Shown: piece by piece, positions 861-46,162 of the stretch
Layout of the letters: every line of letters begins with the position of its first letter
Numbering within the stretch: the stretch's first letter is position 1
Origin: Verrucomicrobiota bacterium
Lineage (GTDB): Bacteria > Verrucomicrobiota > Verrucomicrobiia > Limisphaerales > JACDHS01
Reading direction: 5' to 3'
Assembly: GCA_013820875.1 (NCBI GenBank)
Contig: JACDHS010000022.1
Coordinates: forward strand, 1 to 46,162
Length of the DNA: 46,162 nt
The notes under the pieces: generated by a model
What the model was told of the DNA's origin: nothing
The model's input: only the letters and a program-made list of their open reading frames with translations
Database searches by the model: none
Position numbers and translations under genes: made by a program

Positions 861-3710
861 ATGGTAAATTATTTTCAAACAGGTCAACGCTGGGTTAGTG
901 AGAGCGAGCCGGAACTCGGGTTGGGTTCGGTGCAGCAGGTCACTGGGCGGACGGTCACGATTGCCTTTGGGGCAAGCAATGAAAAGCGGGAGTATGCTCG
1001 CGATAATGCGCCTCTCCGGCGGGTTCGATTTCGTGTTGGGGACACCATCAAGAACCATGCGAATGTGGCGCTGGCGGTTCAATCGGTTAGTGAACGGGAC
1101 GGGCTGATTTTTTATCGCGGTGATGGAACGGAATTATGCGAAACAGACCTGAGCGACGCGATCAGCTTTAACAAGCCGGAGGAACGGTTGTTCGCAGGGC
1201 AGGTGGATGAACCGGCGGCTTTTGATCTTCGGCTTCAGGCGCTTAAACAACAGCATCGCCGTCGCAAGTCCAGCGTGCGCGGGTTTGTGGGTGGCCGCAT
1301 TGATCTCATTCCTCATCAACTTTTTATTTCCTCAGAAGTGGCTGGGCGACTTGTGCCGCGTGTTTTGCTGGCGGACGAAGTGGGCCTCGGGAAAACGATT
1401 GAGGCATGTCTGATTTTGCATCGGCTGATCCTGACCGGGCGTGTGCAACGGGCGTTGATCCTGGTGCCGGAATCGCTCGTGCATCAGTGGTTCGTGGAGT
1501 TGTTGCGACGGTTCAATCTTTGGTTCCACATTTTCGATGAAGAAAGATGCCAGGCCATCGAAACGGCGAATCCTGAAACAAATCCCTTCCTGGACGATCA
1601 ATTCGTGCTCTGCAGCATCGGCGTTTTCACAAAAAACGAACAACGACTGAAACAAGCGATTGGGGCCGGTTGGGATATTCTCGTGGTGGACGAAGCGCAT
1701 CATCTCGGTTGGTCGCCTGAAGCGGTCAGTCCGGAATACGCGATCGTCGAGGCGCTCGGGAAAACAACGGCGGGTCTCCTGCTCCTCACTGCGACACCCG
1801 AACAACTCGGCATGGCGAGTCACTTTGCGCGATTGCGATTGCTGGATCCAAGTCGATTCCACGACTTGAATGAATTCATCAATGAAGCGGAGCATTACCG
1901 GGATGTTGCGGTCATTACGGATAAACTTTTCAACAATAAGATCGCCGCTGAGGATGCCCTCGTTCTCTCCCGTATTCTTGGGGATAAAGAAGAGAGCCTT
2001 CGTGTTAAACTTCAGAAAGTTTCCCAGGGCGACGATGCCACTCGCGACGAGTTGATCAAGGCGTTGCTCGATCAACATGGCACCGGGCGCGTGATGTTTC
2101 GTAACACCCGTTCCACCATCAGCGGTTTTCCGAAACGAAACGCGCAACTGCATTCCCTGTCCACTCCCAAAGAAGGGGAAACGTTGTTTCAAAATCTGGC
2201 GGAAGAATTTGCCGCTGATTCCAACGCCGCTGCTGCTGAAGATTTTGATCCGGAGTTCAAAGACGATCCGCGCATCGTCTGGCTGGCTGACTTACTTCGA
2301 AGTCTCGGCATTGAAAAAGTCCTGTTGATTTGCCGGACACAAAGCAAAGTCGAGGAGATCGATGGGGCGCTCAGGAGGCAGATCAATGTAAAAGTGGCGG
2401 TGTTCCATGAAGGTCTTCCGCTGGTGCAGCGGGATCGCAATGCGGCCTGGTTCGCCGACGACGATGGCGCTCGCCTTTTGATCTGTTCAGAGATCGGTAG
2501 TGAAGGTCGCAACTTCCAATTTGCGCATCACCTTGTCCTGTTCGATCTGCCGCTTGATCCCGAATTGCTTGAACAACGCATTGGCCGACTCGACCGCATC
2601 GGGCAGACTTCAGAGATTCAAGTGCATGTGCCGTTTGTCACTGGCAGTTCGCAGGAAGTGTTGGCGCGCTGGTATCATGAGGGCTTGAACTCGTTCCAGA
2701 AAAATCTTCTCGGCGGTCGCAAACTACTGGAGCAGTTCGGCGGACGCGTGCATGACCTCGCGCAGGATTTTCATGAGACGGAAGAAACCTCCCGACCGGA
2801 ACTGGATCGTTTGATCGCCGAAACAGAAGTCGCGCGCAAAGAGCTGACCATCCAACTGGAACAAGGCCGGGACCGTTTGTTGGAAATGAATTCGTTTCGT
2901 TCCGATGTCGCCTCCAAAGTGGTGCAGGAGATTCGCGCGGAAGATAAAGATCTATCGCTCGATCAATTCATGCTCGCGGTGTTTGATCATCACTCCATCC
3001 ACGTCGAGGAACTCGCTCCCCGCACTTATTATCTCGGCTCGGCCGGAGTGTTCGCCGATACGTTCCCCGGTCTGCCGGCGGAAGGAGTCACTGTTACTGC
3101 CGATCGCCAGCGCGCCCTTTCTCGTGAGACGGTGCAATTCCTCACCTGGGATCATCCGCTGGTCACTGGCGCCCTCGATCTCCTGTTTGGTTCAGAGAAA
3201 GGGAACAGCGGTTTTGCCGTCTGGTCAGACGATAAGGTCGCCGGTTTATATCTTGAAACCGTTTACGTTCTCGAATGCATTGCTCCGCCACACTTGCATG
3301 TGGACCGCTTTTTACCGCCCACTCCTTTGCGCGTCCTGGTGGATCATCGTGGCAATGACACGAGTGCTGCCATCGGCATCGAAATGCTCACACGCCACCT
3401 GAAACCTGGCGAACCCTACGCACTCCTGGATCGCCCCGAATTGCGCGAAGATTTGCTTCCGCTCCTGATTGAAAAAGCGGAAGAGATCGCGAGTAATCAG
3501 ATGCCGCGGATCGTGGCTGAAGCGCGTAAAGAAATGAGCGCGCAACTGGGCCACGAGATCACCCGGTTGAAAGAATTGCAAAAGGTGAACCGCAGTGTGC
3601 GCCCGGAAGAAATCGAATTGCTGGTTCAACAGCACGCGTCATTGGAGCAGCATTTGAGTAACGCCCGCCTGAGACTCGATGCGATTCGATTGATTCAGCG
3701 GGGTGGTTGA
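861..3710 (+). CDS. rapA: RNA polymerase-associated SNF2 ATPase RapA (HepA)
   Basis: 949 residues, close to the 968 of E. coli RapA. RapA binds core RNA polymerase and uses ATP to release and recycle enzyme stalled after transcription. The N-terminal Tudor-like region (GQRWVSESEPELGLGSV, residues 8-24, and RLFAGQ near 109) is the RapA hallmark and separates it from other SNF2 helicases such as DISARM DrmD. Walker A is ADEVGLGKT (171-179), the DEAH box is DEAH (277-280), motif III is LTATPEQLG (309-317), and motif VI is QRIGRLDRIGQ near 573. The C-terminal RapA_C region, including LRVLVDHRGND, is present. The ATG at 861 gives the standard start. It stands alone on its strand. Its neighbour is a broken conflict-system gene, but nothing in the sequence ties the two functionally. 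Confidence 0.93.
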   Translation: MVNYFQTGQRWVSESEPELGLGSVQQVTGRTVTIAFGASNEKREYARDNAPLRRVRFRVGDTIKNHANVALAVQSVSERDGLIFYRGDGTELCETDLSDAISFNKPEERLFAGQVDEPAAFDLRLQALKQQHRRRKSSVRGFVGGRIDLIPHQLFISSEVAGRLVPRVLLADEVGLGKTIEACLILHRLILTGRVQRALILVPESLVHQWFVELLRRFNLWFHIFDEERCQAIETANPETNPFLDDQFVLCSIGVFTKNEQRLKQAIGAGWDILVVDEAHHLGWSPEAVSPEYAIVEALGKTTAGLLLLTATPEQLGMASHFARLRLLDPSRFHDLNEFINEAEHYRDVAVITDKLFNNKIAAEDALVLSRILGDKEESLRVKLQKVSQGDDATRDELIKALLDQHGTGRVMFRNTRSTISGFPKRNAQLHSLSTPKEGETLFQNLAEEFAADSNAAAAEDFDPEFKDDPRIVWLADLLRSLGIEKVLLICRTQSKVEEIDGALRRQINVKVAVFHEGLPLVQRDRNAAWFADDDGARLLICSEIGSEGRNFQFAHHLVLFDLPLDPELLEQRIGRLDRIGQTSEIQVHVPFVTGSSQEVLARWYHEGLNSFQKNLLGGRKLLEQFGGRVHDLAQDFHETEETSRPELDRLIAETEVARKELTIQLEQGRDRLLEMNSFRSDVASKVVQEIRAEDKDLSLDQFMLAVFDHHSIHVEELAPRTYYLGSAGVFADTFPGLPAEGVTVTADRQRALSRETVQFLTWDHPLVTGALDLLFGSEKGNSGFAVWSDDKVAGLYLETVYVLECIAPPHLHVDRFLPPTPLRVLVDHRGNDTSAAIGIEMLTRHLKPGEPYALLDRPELREDLLPLLIEKAEEIASNQMPRIVAEARKEMSAQLGHEITRLKELQKVNRSVRPEEIELLVQQHASLEQHLSNARLRLDAIRLIQRGG

Positions 3711-19467: not shown

Positions 19468-19488
19468 GGGTCAGGAAACAAATACACG

Positions 19489-19757
19489 AATCCCAAAGGG
19501 ATTCCGCAACAAAGCCCAGGGTTGCCCCGATCTGATCGGGGCTACCCTGGGGATCGTGCGAAAGATGGCGTCAACCCCAACGGGGTTGCGTAATGTTTTC
19601 AGCACCTTGCCAGCGGCGCGTTGATATCCAGTTGTTGGCAGCGTTGACCACAGAAAGGTTACGCAACCCCGTTGGGGTTGTGAAACGCCTGCCACTTTTC
19701 CCAGGGTAGCTCGTGCCTCGCAACCCTGGGCTTTGTTACGCAATCCCTTTGGGATTG
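19489..19757. repeat. Composite inverted hairpin element, copy 1 (inside the sulfate operon)
   Basis: A 269-bp mirror-ordered set of six hairpins. Left half: AATCCC-AAA-GGGATT (19489-19503), then a CCCAGGGT/ACCCTGGG stem (19515-19551) with GCCCCGATC-T-GATCGGGGC inside, then CAACCCC-AAC-GGGGTTG (19572-19588). Right half in reverse order: CAACCCC-GTT-GGGGTTG (19664-19680), CCCAGGGT...ACCCTGGG (19700-19730), and CAATCCC-TTT-GGGATTG (19741-19757). The two halves are inverted copies of each other around a non-repeated ~75-bp core. A second copy lies at 45909-46162. No coding content. It resembles a palindromic extragenic repeat or a non-autonomous mobile unit. Confidence 0.8.
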
Positions 19758-21702: not shown

Positions 21703-21805
21703 TCGACTCGCGGTCCGGTTTGGGGGCAGTGTCAAAGATGCGTCAGGGTGGACCTCACATCAATTGCCCCTTAAGTAGCAAATAAACCGAAAAAAACCCA
21801 TTCCA

Positions 21806-22326
21806 GACGTCAAAACGGGAGAAAAGGTGGGAATTGTTGGGGTTTTGACGTCGATGTAAGACTTACGGAGGCGTCAAAATTAGTTTTGGCCACCCATGTA
21901 AGTCTTCCCGAGGCGTCTAAACTGTTTTTGGCGTCTCGGGAAGTCTTACAACGGGGTCTAAACCGGTTTTGGCGTCCTTGTAAGACTTACAACGAGGCCA
22001 AAACTAATTTTGACCACCCATGTAAGTCTTCCCGAGACGTCTAAAATGTTTTTGGTGCCTCGGGAAGTCTTACAACGACGTCAAAACTCGTAAAATCCAC
22101 TCGGGAAGAGTTACATCGATGCCCAAAATTGTTTTAGACCATCGATGTAAGACTTACATGGGCCGTCAAAAACGTTTTGGGCGGTCTCTGTAACTCTTAC
22201 ATCGCCCCCCATTTCTGTGTTTGGCCATCGATGTAAGTCTTACAACGACGTCCTTTTCGTGGCAGACCACTCGGGAAATGTTACAACGATGCTCTGTTTC
22301 GGTTTGGCCGCCGATGTAACTCTTAC
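21806..22326. repeat. Helically phased palindrome array (12 x 11 bp, 41-43 bp apart)
   Basis: Twelve copies of a degenerate palindrome, consensus G(T/G)AAG-N-CTT(A/C)C, begin at 21856, 21898, 21939, 21980, 22022, 22063, 22104, 22147, 22190, 22233, 22274 and 22316. The steps are 42, 41, 41, 42, 41, 41, 43, 43, 43, 41 and 42 bp, about four helical turns each. Midway between most neighbours sits a second palindrome of the form CAAAA-N-TTTTG, for example AAACCGGTTT centred at 21964.5 and AAAACGTTTT centred at 22173.5. The first two 124-bp blocks (from 21856 and from 21980) repeat each other as three-step units. The left flank is a perfect inverted repeat, GACGTCAAAAC (21806-21816) with GTTTTGACGTC (21842-21852). 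No open frame makes sense across it. Confidence 0.9.
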
Positions 22327-22888
22327 AACGACCGTCCGCACCGGAAAATCCAGGAGGTGGAAACCGCCGCGAGCGTCCCCAAAGGGAAGGGGACATTTGC
22401 GGTCTCACCCTGACGGTTGCAATCGTTCACCCACGAGAAGAATTCATCCCGATTGGACAAACCGCTAGCGGTTCAGGAACGAGGATCTTCGCTTAACCCA
22501 GGTAACAGCGCATCCCCATCGGCAGTCGCGTCAGCGACGACCCGCTTTGTAGCCGTGGAATTTATTCCACGATTTTGGCCAGTCATGTAACTGCGTCGCT
22601 ACCCCCTTCGTGGTAGACAATGTGACGAGCCTCAAATTCTCGACGTTAAACAGACTTTAGCTTGCCTCGGGTTGCGACGGGGATGCTGTTGATCCGGACC
22701 TGCCATCAAATCGCCTTGTTTGATAAGCGATTATTAGTATGATCGCGCCGCTCCGCATGGCGAAACCCAACAACAAATTCAAAAAAGATTTCTCCAATTC
22801 TGGACTATCTTCGAAGCTTGCTGACACAATGCCCACGTCCTCTGACAGCAACTATCCTCAAGACCCGATTCTCCAAGCTCTTGTTCTT
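22327..22888. other. Non-coding stretch with scattered palindromes
   Basis: No supportable gene. It holds GTCCCC...GGGGAC near 22376, the perfect palindrome AACCGCTAGCGGTT (22460-22473), GTCGC-N4-GCGAC (22525-22538) and CGTGGAAT-TT-ATTCCACG (22554-22571). These do not keep the 42-bp phase of the array to the left. From about 22740 the sequence looks coding-like and leads into an hsdR-like remnant. Confidence 0.6.
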
Positions 22889-23043: not shown

Positions 23044-23238
23044 ACGACTACACCGACACCGCGACGCGCATGAGCGCGAATCCCCAACCGCAAAGCGACT
23101 CGGCGGGTCTTTTGCGAAGTGAAAGACAACCCATCGTCAGCACCATCCAAAACCTTGGCATCACTCAAGCGAAAAACAAACACACCACTGCCGAACGTGA
23201 CTTCCGCAACCGCCGCCAGCATAATCTCTCCTCATAAA

Positions 23239-24387
23239 ATGAAAGCTGCAGTCTATTTTGAAACCAAGCTCGGCCGAATCTATAACGGCGACTCTCTCGA
23301 CCTCATGAGAGAGCGTTTCGCTGACGCTTCAGTGGATCTGATAATGACAAGTCCACCCTTTGGGCTTGTTCGCAAGAAGTCGTATGGGAACGTCCAATCC
23401 GAGGAATATGTCGCTTGGTTCAAGCAGTTCGGGCACGAGTTCAAACGGATACTAAAAGACAACGGCTCGCTCGTGATTGATATCGGCGGAGCGTGGATGC
23501 CGGGCCAGCCAACCCGGTCACTATATCAATACGAACTTCTAATTATGCTCTGCAAGGAGATTGGATTCCATTTAGCACAGGAGTTCTTTTGGTGGAACCC
23601 GGCCCGCTTACCTACGCCCGCCGAATGGGTGACGGTGCGGCGCGTTCGATGCAAGGATGCGATAAACTGCCTGTGGTGGTTGTCCCCCACGCCTTGGCCG
23701 AAGGCTAGTAATCGTCGGGTTCTTGCGGCCTACAGTGACTCAATGCACCAGCTCTTGCGCAATGGGTATAATCCGAAACTACGGCCCAGCGGGCACGACA
23801 TCAGCGATAAGTTTGGCATCAATAACGGAGGTTCTATTCCACCGAACTTGCTCGCTTTTCCGAACACGGAGAGCAATTCGCACTACTTGAAATATTGCAC
23901 GGAATACCAACTCACCCCGCACCCAGCTCGGTTCCCCAGCGCCCTGCCAGAGTTCTTCATTCGAATGCTGACGAATAAGGGTGATTTCGTCTTTGACCCA
24001 TTTGGCGGCAGTTGTGTTACCGGCGAAACGGCGGAGCGGATGGCAAGAAAGTGGGCGTGTTGTGACCTCGACGAGGGATACGTTAAAGGAGCGAAGGGGC
24101 GCTTTCTCCGCTCTCAAGCTGACATCGGGTCGACAAGAGGCGCCAAGGCCGAAACATACAGCGTTCCCAATCCACTCACTGAGCCATGCGATGATTCCGA
24201 GGAGCTTTCTGTTGACGGCGGCAAGGTGCGTGCGGCAAAACGCAAGGCAATCGGGAATGGCCTTCACACGCCTCGGATAGCCAGCCCGATGCGTGGAGAC
24301 GAAGATCTCCGACGTCGAAAAGCCCTGCCCACTGAGCAAATGCGGCTGTTGGAAGAACCCATGAAATACAAAGCCAAACGCAAATAG
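23239..24387 (+). CDS. DNA methyltransferase, beta class (N4-cytosine or N6-adenine)
   Basis: 382 residues from the ATG at 23239 (MKAAVYFETKLGRIYNGDSL); an in-frame ATG at 23119 would add 40 low-complexity residues through decayed sequence. Catalytic motif IV TSPPFGLV (37-44) precedes the SAM-binding motif I DPFGGSCVTGE (about 251-261), the order of beta-class enzymes. A TSPPF form is common in N4-cytosine enzymes but does not exclude N6-adenine. A target-recognition region lies between the two, with YQLTPHPARFPSALPEFF before motif I. The C-terminal ~80 residues are a variable basic tail. The HNH nuclease gene starts 3 bp after its stop, making this the protective half of a type II-like restriction-modification pair. 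Confidence 0.85.
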   Translation: MKAAVYFETKLGRIYNGDSLDLMRERFADASVDLIMTSPPFGLVRKKSYGNVQSEEYVAWFKQFGHEFKRILKDNGSLVIDIGGAWMPGQPTRSLYQYELLIMLCKEIGFHLAQEFFWWNPARLPTPAEWVTVRRVRCKDAINCLWWLSPTPWPKASNRRVLAAYSDSMHQLLRNGYNPKLRPSGHDISDKFGINNGGSIPPNLLAFPNTESNSHYLKYCTEYQLTPHPARFPSALPEFFIRMLTNKGDFVFDPFGGSCVTGETAERMARKWACCDLDEGYVKGAKGRFLRSQADIGSTRGAKAETYSVPNPLTEPCDDSEELSVDGGKVRAAKRKAIGNGLHTPRIASPMRGDEDLRRRKALPTEQMRLLEEPMKYKAKRK

Positions 24388-24390
24388 CTT

Positions 24391-25416
24391 ATGCCTGCTC
24401 TTAGTGACCATCGTCTTCGTGCCGTTTTACTTAGCGCACTTCCGGGTGCCACAGTCATTACGGACTTGGGCCATACAAAGCCGATGATCCTCTCACTTCC
24501 AAACTCGGAGCCATTTCGGATATACCTCTGGACTACGACCCCGGACGCTTCGGCGCAAGGACGACCTGCTGGAGAACACAAGGCACAGATAATCTTACCT
24601 GGAACAGTTCGCGGAAGCACGCAACGTCTCAATTTGGAAGGGATGCCGACTGCGCTCCTCGGATACAGTCCGCTGTTCAGTGTTTTTACAGCTTGGGATG
24701 CCAGCCTTCATTTCGAAAGTGGCTACAGTAAGAACCTTCAGTTCAGGGAGGAGCTTCTGGAAGCCTGTCTGGTCAGTGGTTGGGCGGTAGGCGATCTGCG
24801 GCGAACCGATAACGGACCTGAAGTCCGAGTGGCTGTTCACCCGTTGCACTTGCCACGCTATTTGCTGGCGATGGCAGAAGCTGACTCCCGCCACCTTCGA
24901 GGTGAGGAGCGTCGCCAATTCTTTATTTCGTGCCGACCGCCAATAACGGTCGGAGTAGAGCAACCGGCCGCAGAAACAGAAATTGCGCCTGTGGGACCGA
25001 GAGGCCGAGTCACCGCGACCAGACTCAGCCGATCGGGAACTTTCGGTCCAAGTGTTCTCGCTGAGTTTGGGCAGACATGCGCCATCTGTCAGACTCAACT
25101 CCGAATTGTCGAAGGTGCGCACATCATTCCAATTCACGACGACCGATGCCGGGATGAGGTTTGGAATGGTATCTGCCTTTGCCGTAACCACCACCGCCTA
25201 TTCGACCTTCGAATTGTGCGGTTGAACTCAGACGGTGTGGTTGGAGTTGAGACCGATGATATCAACTATCTTCGAGGCTTGGGCGTTCTTGGAGGTTTTG
25301 AAAACGTAATTCAACCTTTCATCGGGCATACCATTCGGCTCCCGAATTTCTTTAGTCGTGACGCCAGATTAAGGAGCAGGTTTCAAAGCGCGCTTGCGAC
25401 AATGGCGGCAGGCTAG
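24391..25416 (+). CDS. HNH-type restriction endonuclease
   Basis: 341 residues. The C-terminal third contains an HNH fold: CAIC (230-233) as first zinc knuckle, AHIIPIHDD (the catalytic His region, about 243-251), WNGICLCRNHHRLFD with the Asn/His pair. Such HNH_2-type domains are the nuclease part of several type II restriction enzymes. The N-terminal ~190 residues, with RIYLWTTTPD, ALLGYSPLFSVFTAWD and VRVAVHPLHLPRYLL, probably recognise DNA; I cannot name that domain with certainty. It starts 3 bp after the methyltransferase, so the two are a coupled operon. The TAG stop at 25414-25416 is followed in the same frame by a DUF3024-like segment. Confidence 0.82.
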   Translation: MPALSDHRLRAVLLSALPGATVITDLGHTKPMILSLPNSEPFRIYLWTTTPDASAQGRPAGEHKAQIILPGTVRGSTQRLNLEGMPTALLGYSPLFSVFTAWDASLHFESGYSKNLQFREELLEACLVSGWAVGDLRRTDNGPEVRVAVHPLHLPRYLLAMAEADSRHLRGEERRQFFISCRPPITVGVEQPAAETEIAPVGPRGRVTATRLSRSGTFGPSVLAEFGQTCAICQTQLRIVEGAHIIPIHDDRCRDEVWNGICLCRNHHRLFDLRIVRLNSDGVVGVETDDINYLRGLGVLGGFENVIQPFIGHTIRLPNFFSRDARLRSRFQSALATMAAG

Positions 25417-44277: not shown

Positions 44278-44872
44278 CGCCTCGGTGCTTCAATCACTTC
44301 AATCTTGATCGGCGCAGAAGCAAGTCGGTTCGTTAGACCGAAGAAGCCAAAAACAGCCGACACCTCGTTCTTCTCTTCACCAAAAGGTTCCGGACTCCAG
44401 GAAGAGACTTGCTGACCAATTGCCAAACCAGCCCCGCTGAACTGCACCAAATACCGGCCCGTGTTCGTGATCGTGTAATGTTTGCTGAGATCCATGCGGT
44501 CGGCAATGATCGCCGATGCCCCCGGCGCCACGTGCCCTTTGCCCACCCCGATTTGAGCGGGAGTTTGAGTGAAAAGCAACGGTTGCCCCTGCTCGTTGAG
44601 GACAGTCAGAGGCGAATGCGCCACGCCTGAATCCATGAAATGCACCATTGTCTGCCCCATGTTCTCCAACCCCGCCGGTGGTGGTTACAGAGCGTCCATC
44701 TTTAGTAGTGAAAGTGAACGGGTGGACATATCGGATTTCAAGATCCCTACTCGCCTCGATCCACGATTGTGCTGCGGGGTTGCTCATTGGGCTAACGACA
44801 AGCTGATCGATGATGAGTAGCGCGCCAAGAAAATACCATTTGAAACAAAGATGCGACCGCGCTCCTCGTCAT
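44274..44872 (-). pseudogene. Frameshifted membrane-linked gene of unknown family
   Basis: Two overlapping frames join into one protein when a single G is removed from GGCGGGGTTGG near 44675. The first gives WYFLGALLIIDQLVVSPM (a membrane helix), AAQSWIEASRDLEIRYVHPF and TTKDGRSVTTTGG. The second gives ENMGQTMVHFMDSGVAHSPL, LLFTQTPAQIGVGKGH, a TITNTGRYLVQFSG segment and the C-terminal SAPIKIEVIEAPRR. The only ATG upstream of the helix (44872) is in a third frame, so a second shift is likely. The two fragments may be expressed if the shift is a sequencing error. It overlaps the phosphoesterase gene by 4 bp. Confidence 0.6.
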
Positions 44873-44907
44873 TCGATCCAGCGATTGGTTCGGTGTCGTA
44901 AATACTC

Positions 44908-45763: not shown

Positions 45764-45887
45764 CAACAGCGTAGCTGTTGAAACAGTTGTTAGCGCAGAT
45801 TAAGACGGCTCCGACAGCAATTTTGAGTCTCCAAAATGTTTTGGAAGACTGAAATCGCCGATTTTAACGCTCCAGAATAGTTTGGAG
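45764..45887. repeat. Phased palindromes near the right end
   Basis: CAACAGC-GTA-GCTGTTG (45764-45780), CCAAAA-TG-TTTTGG (45831-45844), AAATC-GCC-GATTT (45852-45864) and CTCCA...TTTGGAG, imperfect (45870-45887). The last three have centres at 45837.5, 45858 and 45878.5, exactly 20.5 bp apart, the half-step of the array at 21856-22326. The rest of 45615-45908 shows no gene. Confidence 0.65.
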
Positions 45888-45908
45888 GACCTCCATCGCG
45901 CCTTGCCC

Positions 45909-46162
45909 AAACCCCAAAGGGGTTTCGAAACAAAGCCCAGGGTTGCGAGGCACGAGCTACCCTGGGTTGTGCGTTAAGAAAAGCTCACAACCCCAACGGG
46001 GTTGCGTAAACATTTTGCCAGGAAATATGTCGTCTCACTGCCTTGATCGTCCACAACGGGTTAATCTCGGCCTTGAAGCGGCAATTTTACGCAACCCCGT
46101 TGGGGTTGAAACGGGTGTCGTATCGTTTACCCAGGGTAGCTCGTGCCTCGCAACCCTGGGCT
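45909..46162. repeat. Composite inverted hairpin element, copy 2 (cut by window end)
   Basis: Same plan as the element at 19489-19757: AAACCCC-AAA-GGGGTTT (45909-45925), CCCAGGGT...ACCCTGGG (45936-45966), CAACCCC-AAC-GGGGTTG (45988-46004), then in reverse CAACCCC-GTT-GGGGTTG (46092-46108) and CCCAGGGT...ACCCTGGG (46130-46160). The final outer hairpin is beyond the window. The loop inside the CCCAGGG stem (GCGAGGCACGAGC) equals that of the right half of copy 1, and the core between the inner hairpins differs from copy 1. Confidence 0.8.

Follow-up and report, generated by a model that had tools for sequence, protein, structure and literature searches.

The window analysed here, which is the whole 46,162-nucleotide stretch of contig JACDHS010000022.1 of a Verrucomicrobiota bacterium, contains a run of short palindromes repeated at an almost constant step, and this raises the question of what such an array is and what sets its spacing. 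A preliminary description had reported twelve 11-bp palindromes with a mean step of about 41.8 bp, all facing the same side of the helix and with a spacing suggestive of selection, and had proposed as possible roles a scaffold for a dimeric DNA-binding protein, a partition or nucleoid-anchoring site, or a hairpin-rich RNA. Dyad cores were indeed found at all twelve starts, and the mean step, 41.82 bp, is as claimed (successive steps of 42, 41, 41, 42, 41, 41, 43, 43, 43, 41 and 42 bp). The 11-bp pattern written for the cores is exact in only eight of the twelve, the four others (22104, 22190, 22274 and 22316) having one or two mismatched positions, at offsets -1 and/or +1. The second, A/T-type palindrome said to lie about midway was also recovered in most of the gaps between cores. 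The features of the window are the following:

21742..22520, + strand: complete element, dispersed and non-coding (12-unit array with a module on each side), delimited from aligned copies
21742..21855, + strand: left module (leader), common to 10 copies
21856..22326, + strand: array of 12 dyad units, step 41–43 bp
21856..21866: dyad core 1, GTAAGACTTAC
21898..21908: dyad core 2, GTAAGTCTTCC
21939..21949: dyad core 3, GGAAGTCTTAC
21980..21990: dyad core 4, GTAAGACTTAC
22022..22032: dyad core 5, GTAAGTCTTCC
22063..22073: dyad core 6, GGAAGTCTTAC
22104..22114: dyad core 7, GGAAGAGTTAC
22147..22157: dyad core 8, GTAAGACTTAC
22190..22200: dyad core 9, GTAACTCTTAC
22233..22243: dyad core 10, GTAAGTCTTAC
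22274..22284: dyad core 11, GGAAATGTTAC
22316..22326: dyad core 12, GTAACTCTTAC
21876..22178: A/T-centred dyads of CAAAA..TTTTG type, about midway between cores 1–9, weaker past 22180
22327..22520, + strand: right module (tail), conserved across aligned copies
45820..45899: second small array, two 41-bp units of the family found on contig C137 (TCCAAAATAGTTTGGA..), unrelated in sequence to the first array

The TRF scores of the array (148–363 with default settings), its fold z-scores and the existence of five full copies with near-identical step series together place it far beyond chance. No plausible gene runs across it, since only short frames of 80–83 aa overlap its end, and steps of 41–43 bp do not maintain a reading frame. 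It is not a CRISPR either, as the entire 41–43 bp unit repeats and the unique spacers that separate CRISPR repeats are absent. The array lies between a gene encoding an Rrf2-family regulator and a DNA methylase/HNH gene pair. This pair, which adjoins the element (23119–25416), consists of an N6/N4 DNA methylase gene followed by an MTaX1/HNH gene and is likely a restriction-modification pair.

The array is the middle part of an element of about 780 bp that is dispersed in its own genome. Searching the 5.7 Mb of the draft (239 contigs) revealed at least 13 copies, counting that of the window; the 12 or more others are 74–90% identical, and aligned copies are found on contigs C40, C145, C92, C140, C191 and C20, among others. 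Five of them, that of the window and four elsewhere in the genome, have the full 12 units and a near-identical step series. The copies are cut at differing points and lie in unrelated contexts, beside genes as diverse as those for Rrf2, DNA methylase, HNH, recA, ResB, PEP hydrolase, LON-like and Ig-like proteins, among others. No terminal inverted repeat is visible at the aligned ends, which differ between copies, and no closely related genome with an unoccupied site was found. DNA similarity searches of 57 other genomes of the order, and of plasmids, recovered no copy of the element. RAYT transposases were considered as possible movers and rejected, the unit being found at none of the loci of the seven Y1_Tnp matches in the genome.

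Other repeats occur in the same surroundings. RAYT-type transposase genes are present in this genome, which bears GTAG-tagged REP-like palindromes; one of these (GTAGCCGTGGAATTTATTCCACG) lies at 22548–22574 of the window, with similar copies on contigs C140, C54 and C209. A separate dispersed repeat of about 30 bp (CCGGTTTGGGGGCAGTGTCAAGATGCG, 21705–21742) abuts the left end of the element, is solitary at other loci and could represent a mobile-element end. Three further dispersed repeats of the window (19488–19756, 44785–44887 and 45910–46018) are shared with other contigs, and eleven 276-bp tandem repeats, probably coding, lie beside one array copy (locus L050, 5964–9008).

The right module provides a link to other arrays. 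Its last 66 bp (22454–22519) also terminate, on contig C137, an array that is unrelated in sequence. As this unrelated array also has a 41-bp unit, the sampling of contigs was widened to examine the pitch, using 58 other contigs (833 kb, about 15% of the draft genome) and retaining arrays with a TRF score of at least 100, at least 2.5 copies and a period of at least 15 bp. Among the 48 arrays obtained, 45 have a period of 41–43 bp (20 at 41, 18 at 42 and 7 at 43), the three exceptions having periods of 24, 36 and 96 bp; if periods from 25 to 60 bp were equally frequent, the binomial probability of 45 arrays within 3 bp would be about 4e-45. A lag scan that does not use TRF gave the same pitch. 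The 48 arrays belong to about 28 unrelated sequence families, some of these unlike families having common abutting flanks, and no k-mer is common to all families, which display only a mild enrichment in A-tracts and CGGAA. Array density is about 50–54 per Mb; this value is somewhat inflated because contig ends preferentially lie within arrays (some ten of the sampled arrays touch or lie close to a contig end). We estimate that the genome probably carries 200–300 arrays, belonging to dozens of sequence families. A triple-pentamer probe (CGGAA x3), run over 320 genomes of the order, gave 197 matches at lags 41–43 in this genome versus 1 at lags 46–48. The pitch is thus a property of the genome and not of the sequence of the window array.

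These data bear directly on whether the arrays are ordinary VNTRs or REP/BIME repeats whose pitch is nothing special. Single arrays do resemble known minisatellite-bearing elements, and bacteria commonly have dispersed repeats, most of them intergenic. However, unit length should vary freely across families of plain minisatellites, and this is contradicted by the period distribution (and by that of the sister genome, given below) and by the ratio of probe matches to those at the control lags. Furthermore, none of the five arrays detected in 400 kb of a complete genome from another family of the order has a period of 41–43 bp. Ordinary repeats are therefore an improbable explanation.

The pitch is shared with the nearest relative. 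Of the 320 genomes of the order, just two yielded arrays with a two-unit sequence model, namely this genome and the one other member of its family. In this sister genome, nine of 11 tandem arrays fall at 41–43 bp, all nine at exactly 41, and the CGGAA probe gave 180 matches at lags 41–43 versus 1 at lags 46–48. The window-type unit of the sister genus is exactly 41 bp long, with the core GTAAGCGTTAC and a different mid-unit dyad, and its unit CGCCGTAAGCGTTACAACGGCG has the same bases as the window family at the offsets that are constrained (see below). Two more arrays of the sister genus (L168, 1395–1770, and L167, 1470–1815) carry the same linker (CGATAAATGATCCGTGATCG) as the others but quite different palindromic cores, and one unit of the second core type lies at the end of an array of the first type (L142, about 3040–3070).

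Beyond this family, the probe reveals a weaker and sporadic preference for the same lags. Matches at lags 41–43 versus 46–48 number 42 versus 0 in genome G313, 25 versus 1 in G017, 23 versus 1 in G236, 19 versus 0 in G246 and 17 versus 0 in G087, all from other families, and up to 10 versus 0 in members of family f26. Most of the 320 genomes have no preference, and G070 has the opposite one, with eight matches at lags 46–48 that come from a 23-bp repeat. A search for homologous arrays with the 11-mer pattern among 84,980 genomes was unproductive: its 12 matches are unrelated tandem repeats and provide no evidence, because the pattern itself fixes the spacing. They include 41–43 bp tandem arrays with GTAAG-type cores (L059, 5680–6273; L057; L064; L066; L068) in records of Filimonas, Ligilactobacillus, Saprospiraceae and Chitinophagaceae, for which the spacing-fixed pattern gives no evidence of kinship. 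A 41-bp palindromic tandem repeat for which the search pattern did not select was also seen in a Nostocaceae record (L065, 5676–5776). Viral contigs gave 9 pattern matches versus 5 for the reversed control, and these correspond to coding repeats or phage operator-like pairs.

The spacing is therefore shared between arrays, and the next question is whether it is maintained within them. The preliminary description had suggested that spacing is selected and would be more conserved than sequence. Within arrays this is not supported, as indels per substitution amount to 0.06–0.08, a ratio no lower than that of the flanking modules. The pitch common to unrelated arrays is a stronger form of the same claim. 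Since indels are not under-represented within arrays, the pitch was apparently set when the arrays were made.

The sequence of the units is constrained in a dyad-symmetric way. In nine copies of the window family, counting both sides of the dyad, only 4 of 72 columns at offsets 2, 3 and 5 are variable versus 20.3 expected, a value reached in none of 20,000 permutations; offset 9 is nearly fixed, and offsets 4, 6–8, 10 and 11 vary freely. An array that diverged long ago (C109) has changed at 2 of 58 constrained positions versus 59 of 176 others (P=7e-7). Conservation is also mirrored about the consensus dyad in 22 arrays from both genomes (mean r 0.25 versus 0.005, P=2e-4). No compensatory change was found at offsets 1–9 in the window family, where pairing at variable pairs is 0.54 at offset 4 and 0.62 at offset 1, and only one of 18 diverged arrays covaries at P<0.05. 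Half-site constraint, mirrored conservation and lack of covariation argue for a site bound by a dimeric protein rather than for an RNA hairpin, so that the dimeric scaffold is the best supported of the roles initially proposed.

Arrays of RNA hairpins, acting as structured non-coding RNAs or mRNA tails, would account for the very stable folds that are indeed predicted (z of -13 and -11 on the two strands), and weak covariation is present in the single sister array L168 (P about 0.02–0.1). However, both strands fold alike, as does any palindrome, the pairs that vary are uncompensated and no Rfam family attains its threshold. A hairpin-rich RNA thus appears very improbable.

The history of these changes is less simple. 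Changes shared by copies affect none of the 96 columns at offsets 2, 3, 5 and 9 versus 83 of 388 elsewhere (P=2e-9), whereas changes private to one copy, counted in the nine closest copies of that of the window, affect 7 of 96 constrained sites versus 46 of 388 others (P=0.27); the two patterns differ at P=0.001. Such a contrast would be expected if the sites mattered mainly in the lineages that founded further copies, and exchange of units between copies could contribute to it. As private changes strike constrained sites about as often as others, the data do not demonstrate that every copy is functional today.

The explanation that we tentatively prefer, and to which we give slightly less than an even chance, is that the arrays belong to non-autonomous elements carrying series of dimer sites and that a protein–DNA complex sets their pitch. 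The array would form the central part of a repeat element that is dispersed, non-coding and not autonomous, with a left and a right module around the tandem dyad units, and each unit would carry a dyad site of about 19–25 bp (C...G.AA...TT.C...G) read in trans by a putative dimeric DNA-binding protein. The common pitch of 41–43 bp would reflect the size of the repeating protein–DNA complex, about four turns, and not a sequence motif, and this ruler would apply at the moment when an array is made or extended. The element, its copies, the pitch common to unrelated families and the dyad-symmetric constraint free of covariation are observed directly; that a protein is involved, that it is dimeric, that it makes or uses the arrays and that geometry sets the pitch are inferences.

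The main rival also invokes a ruler and places it in the copying process: the arrays would be neutral minisatellites produced with a built-in measure of 41–43 nt, the dyads being a by-product or an aid to slippage devoid of any binding function. A replication or single-strand-binding complex could set the limit of slippage or template switching; alternatively, the fixed length could be duplicated by a nuclease or transposase. It accounts well for a pitch common to unrelated sequences in which indels are not selected against and for the absence of a significant dyad in about half of the arrays. Clear dyad symmetry reaches significance in no more than 25/46 and 3/11 arrays, which also weighs against the preferred explanation. 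It does not predict half-site conservation that is dyad-symmetric within and between arrays and lacks the covariation expected from template switching between arms, nor the recurrence of the same constrained bases in a second genus. We consider this copying process unlikely on balance, albeit a much more serious contender than the other alternatives.

The same-side arrangement fits the 41.8-bp mean of the window array; it fails for the exact 41-bp step of the sister genome and for the 43-bp arrays of the genome studied here. Indeed, at 10.5 bp per turn, a 41-bp step rotates each unit by about -34 degrees, and strict helical phasing is therefore broken in the sister genus.

The genes that surround the arrays were also considered. 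None recurs beside them in a convincing or consistently linked way; a sensor-kinase cluster found near 7 arrays versus 2.3 expected is likely generic. A role as centromere or nucleoid-anchoring array, like sopC of plasmid F, is suggested by the anatomy of the window array (12 units of 41–43 bp with one dyad each). However, the neighbouring genes give no support to a partition site, as parA and parB are missing from the surroundings of the window copy and of the other copies sampled, and at least 13 dispersed copies plus dozens of other families are not what a single site would be. This role has very little probability.

Bacterial tandem repeats are usually regarded as isolated accidents with arbitrary unit lengths. 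One unit length across dozens of unrelated families would imply a physical ruler, i.e. that some protein–DNA particle, about four turns in size, is responsible for making, spreading or packaging the arrays. We give an even chance to the arrays being an undescribed class of bacterial satellite DNA. Genomes would carry hundreds of short arrays in dozens of unrelated families, all with a unit close to four turns in length, and a putative dyad-binding machinery with a measure of about 42 bp would produce these arrays, read them or do both. Such DNA would be most pronounced in one family of the order and occur sporadically elsewhere. The pitch would offer a direct handle on the protein, through binding to a synthetic array or through genes that co-occur with the 41–43 bp peak across the order. 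No description of fixed-pitch arrays across unrelated bacterial families was found in the open-access literature.

Three known bacterial systems resemble parts of what is described here. BrickBuilt, a minisatellite-bearing MITE of Porphyromonas gingivalis, has 19 copies in one genome, versus at least 13 here, and the same plan of leader, tandem units and tail in intergenic copies (PMC4596501); the element described here likewise has a leader and a tail around a spacer-free array and many intergenic copies. The BrickBuilt unit is, however, 23 bp long and devoid of a dyad plan, its ends are small inverted repeats that were not seen here, and it is a single family, without any genome-wide pitch across unrelated ones (PMC4596501). 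In sopC, the centromere of plasmid F, a 43-bp unit is repeated twelve times in tandem, and every unit has a short inverted repeat to which a ParB dimer binds; the window array closely approaches this arrangement. The sopC centromere is nevertheless one site per plasmid beside sopAB, whereas the present arrays are dispersed, belong to many families and have no adjoining par genes (PMC9178275). A single element thus resembles BrickBuilt and a single array sopC, and each fails on what defines these systems. REP/BIME sequences of the GTAG and CGTC superfamilies are also palindromes that are dispersed, lie mostly outside genes and often alternate in orientation; their hallmark is a 20–40 bp palindrome, one end of which bears an unpaired tag, GTAG or CGTC (PMC3733652). 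The arrays differ from them in being longer, in their fixed pitch, in having no link with RAYT and in units that are unrelated between families (PMC3733652); the unit lacks the GTAG tag, and the CGTC that stands beside the A/T dyad in many units is not followed by a stem of 8–9 bp with a loop of 4–5 nt. From none of these three systems would one expect dozens of unrelated families to have the same unit length. Such a situation is known from the nucleosome-length satellites of eukaryotes, in which many unrelated tandem families have one unit length that derives from a protein–DNA particle (PMC8122249). The comparison is an analogy alone, as those satellites are eukaryotic and the arrays described here are bacterial, short and built on a unit of about 42 bp, with a particle that is only putative (PMC8122249). 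If such a particle does set their pitch, these arrays would be the bacterial counterpart of satellite DNA with nucleosome-length units.
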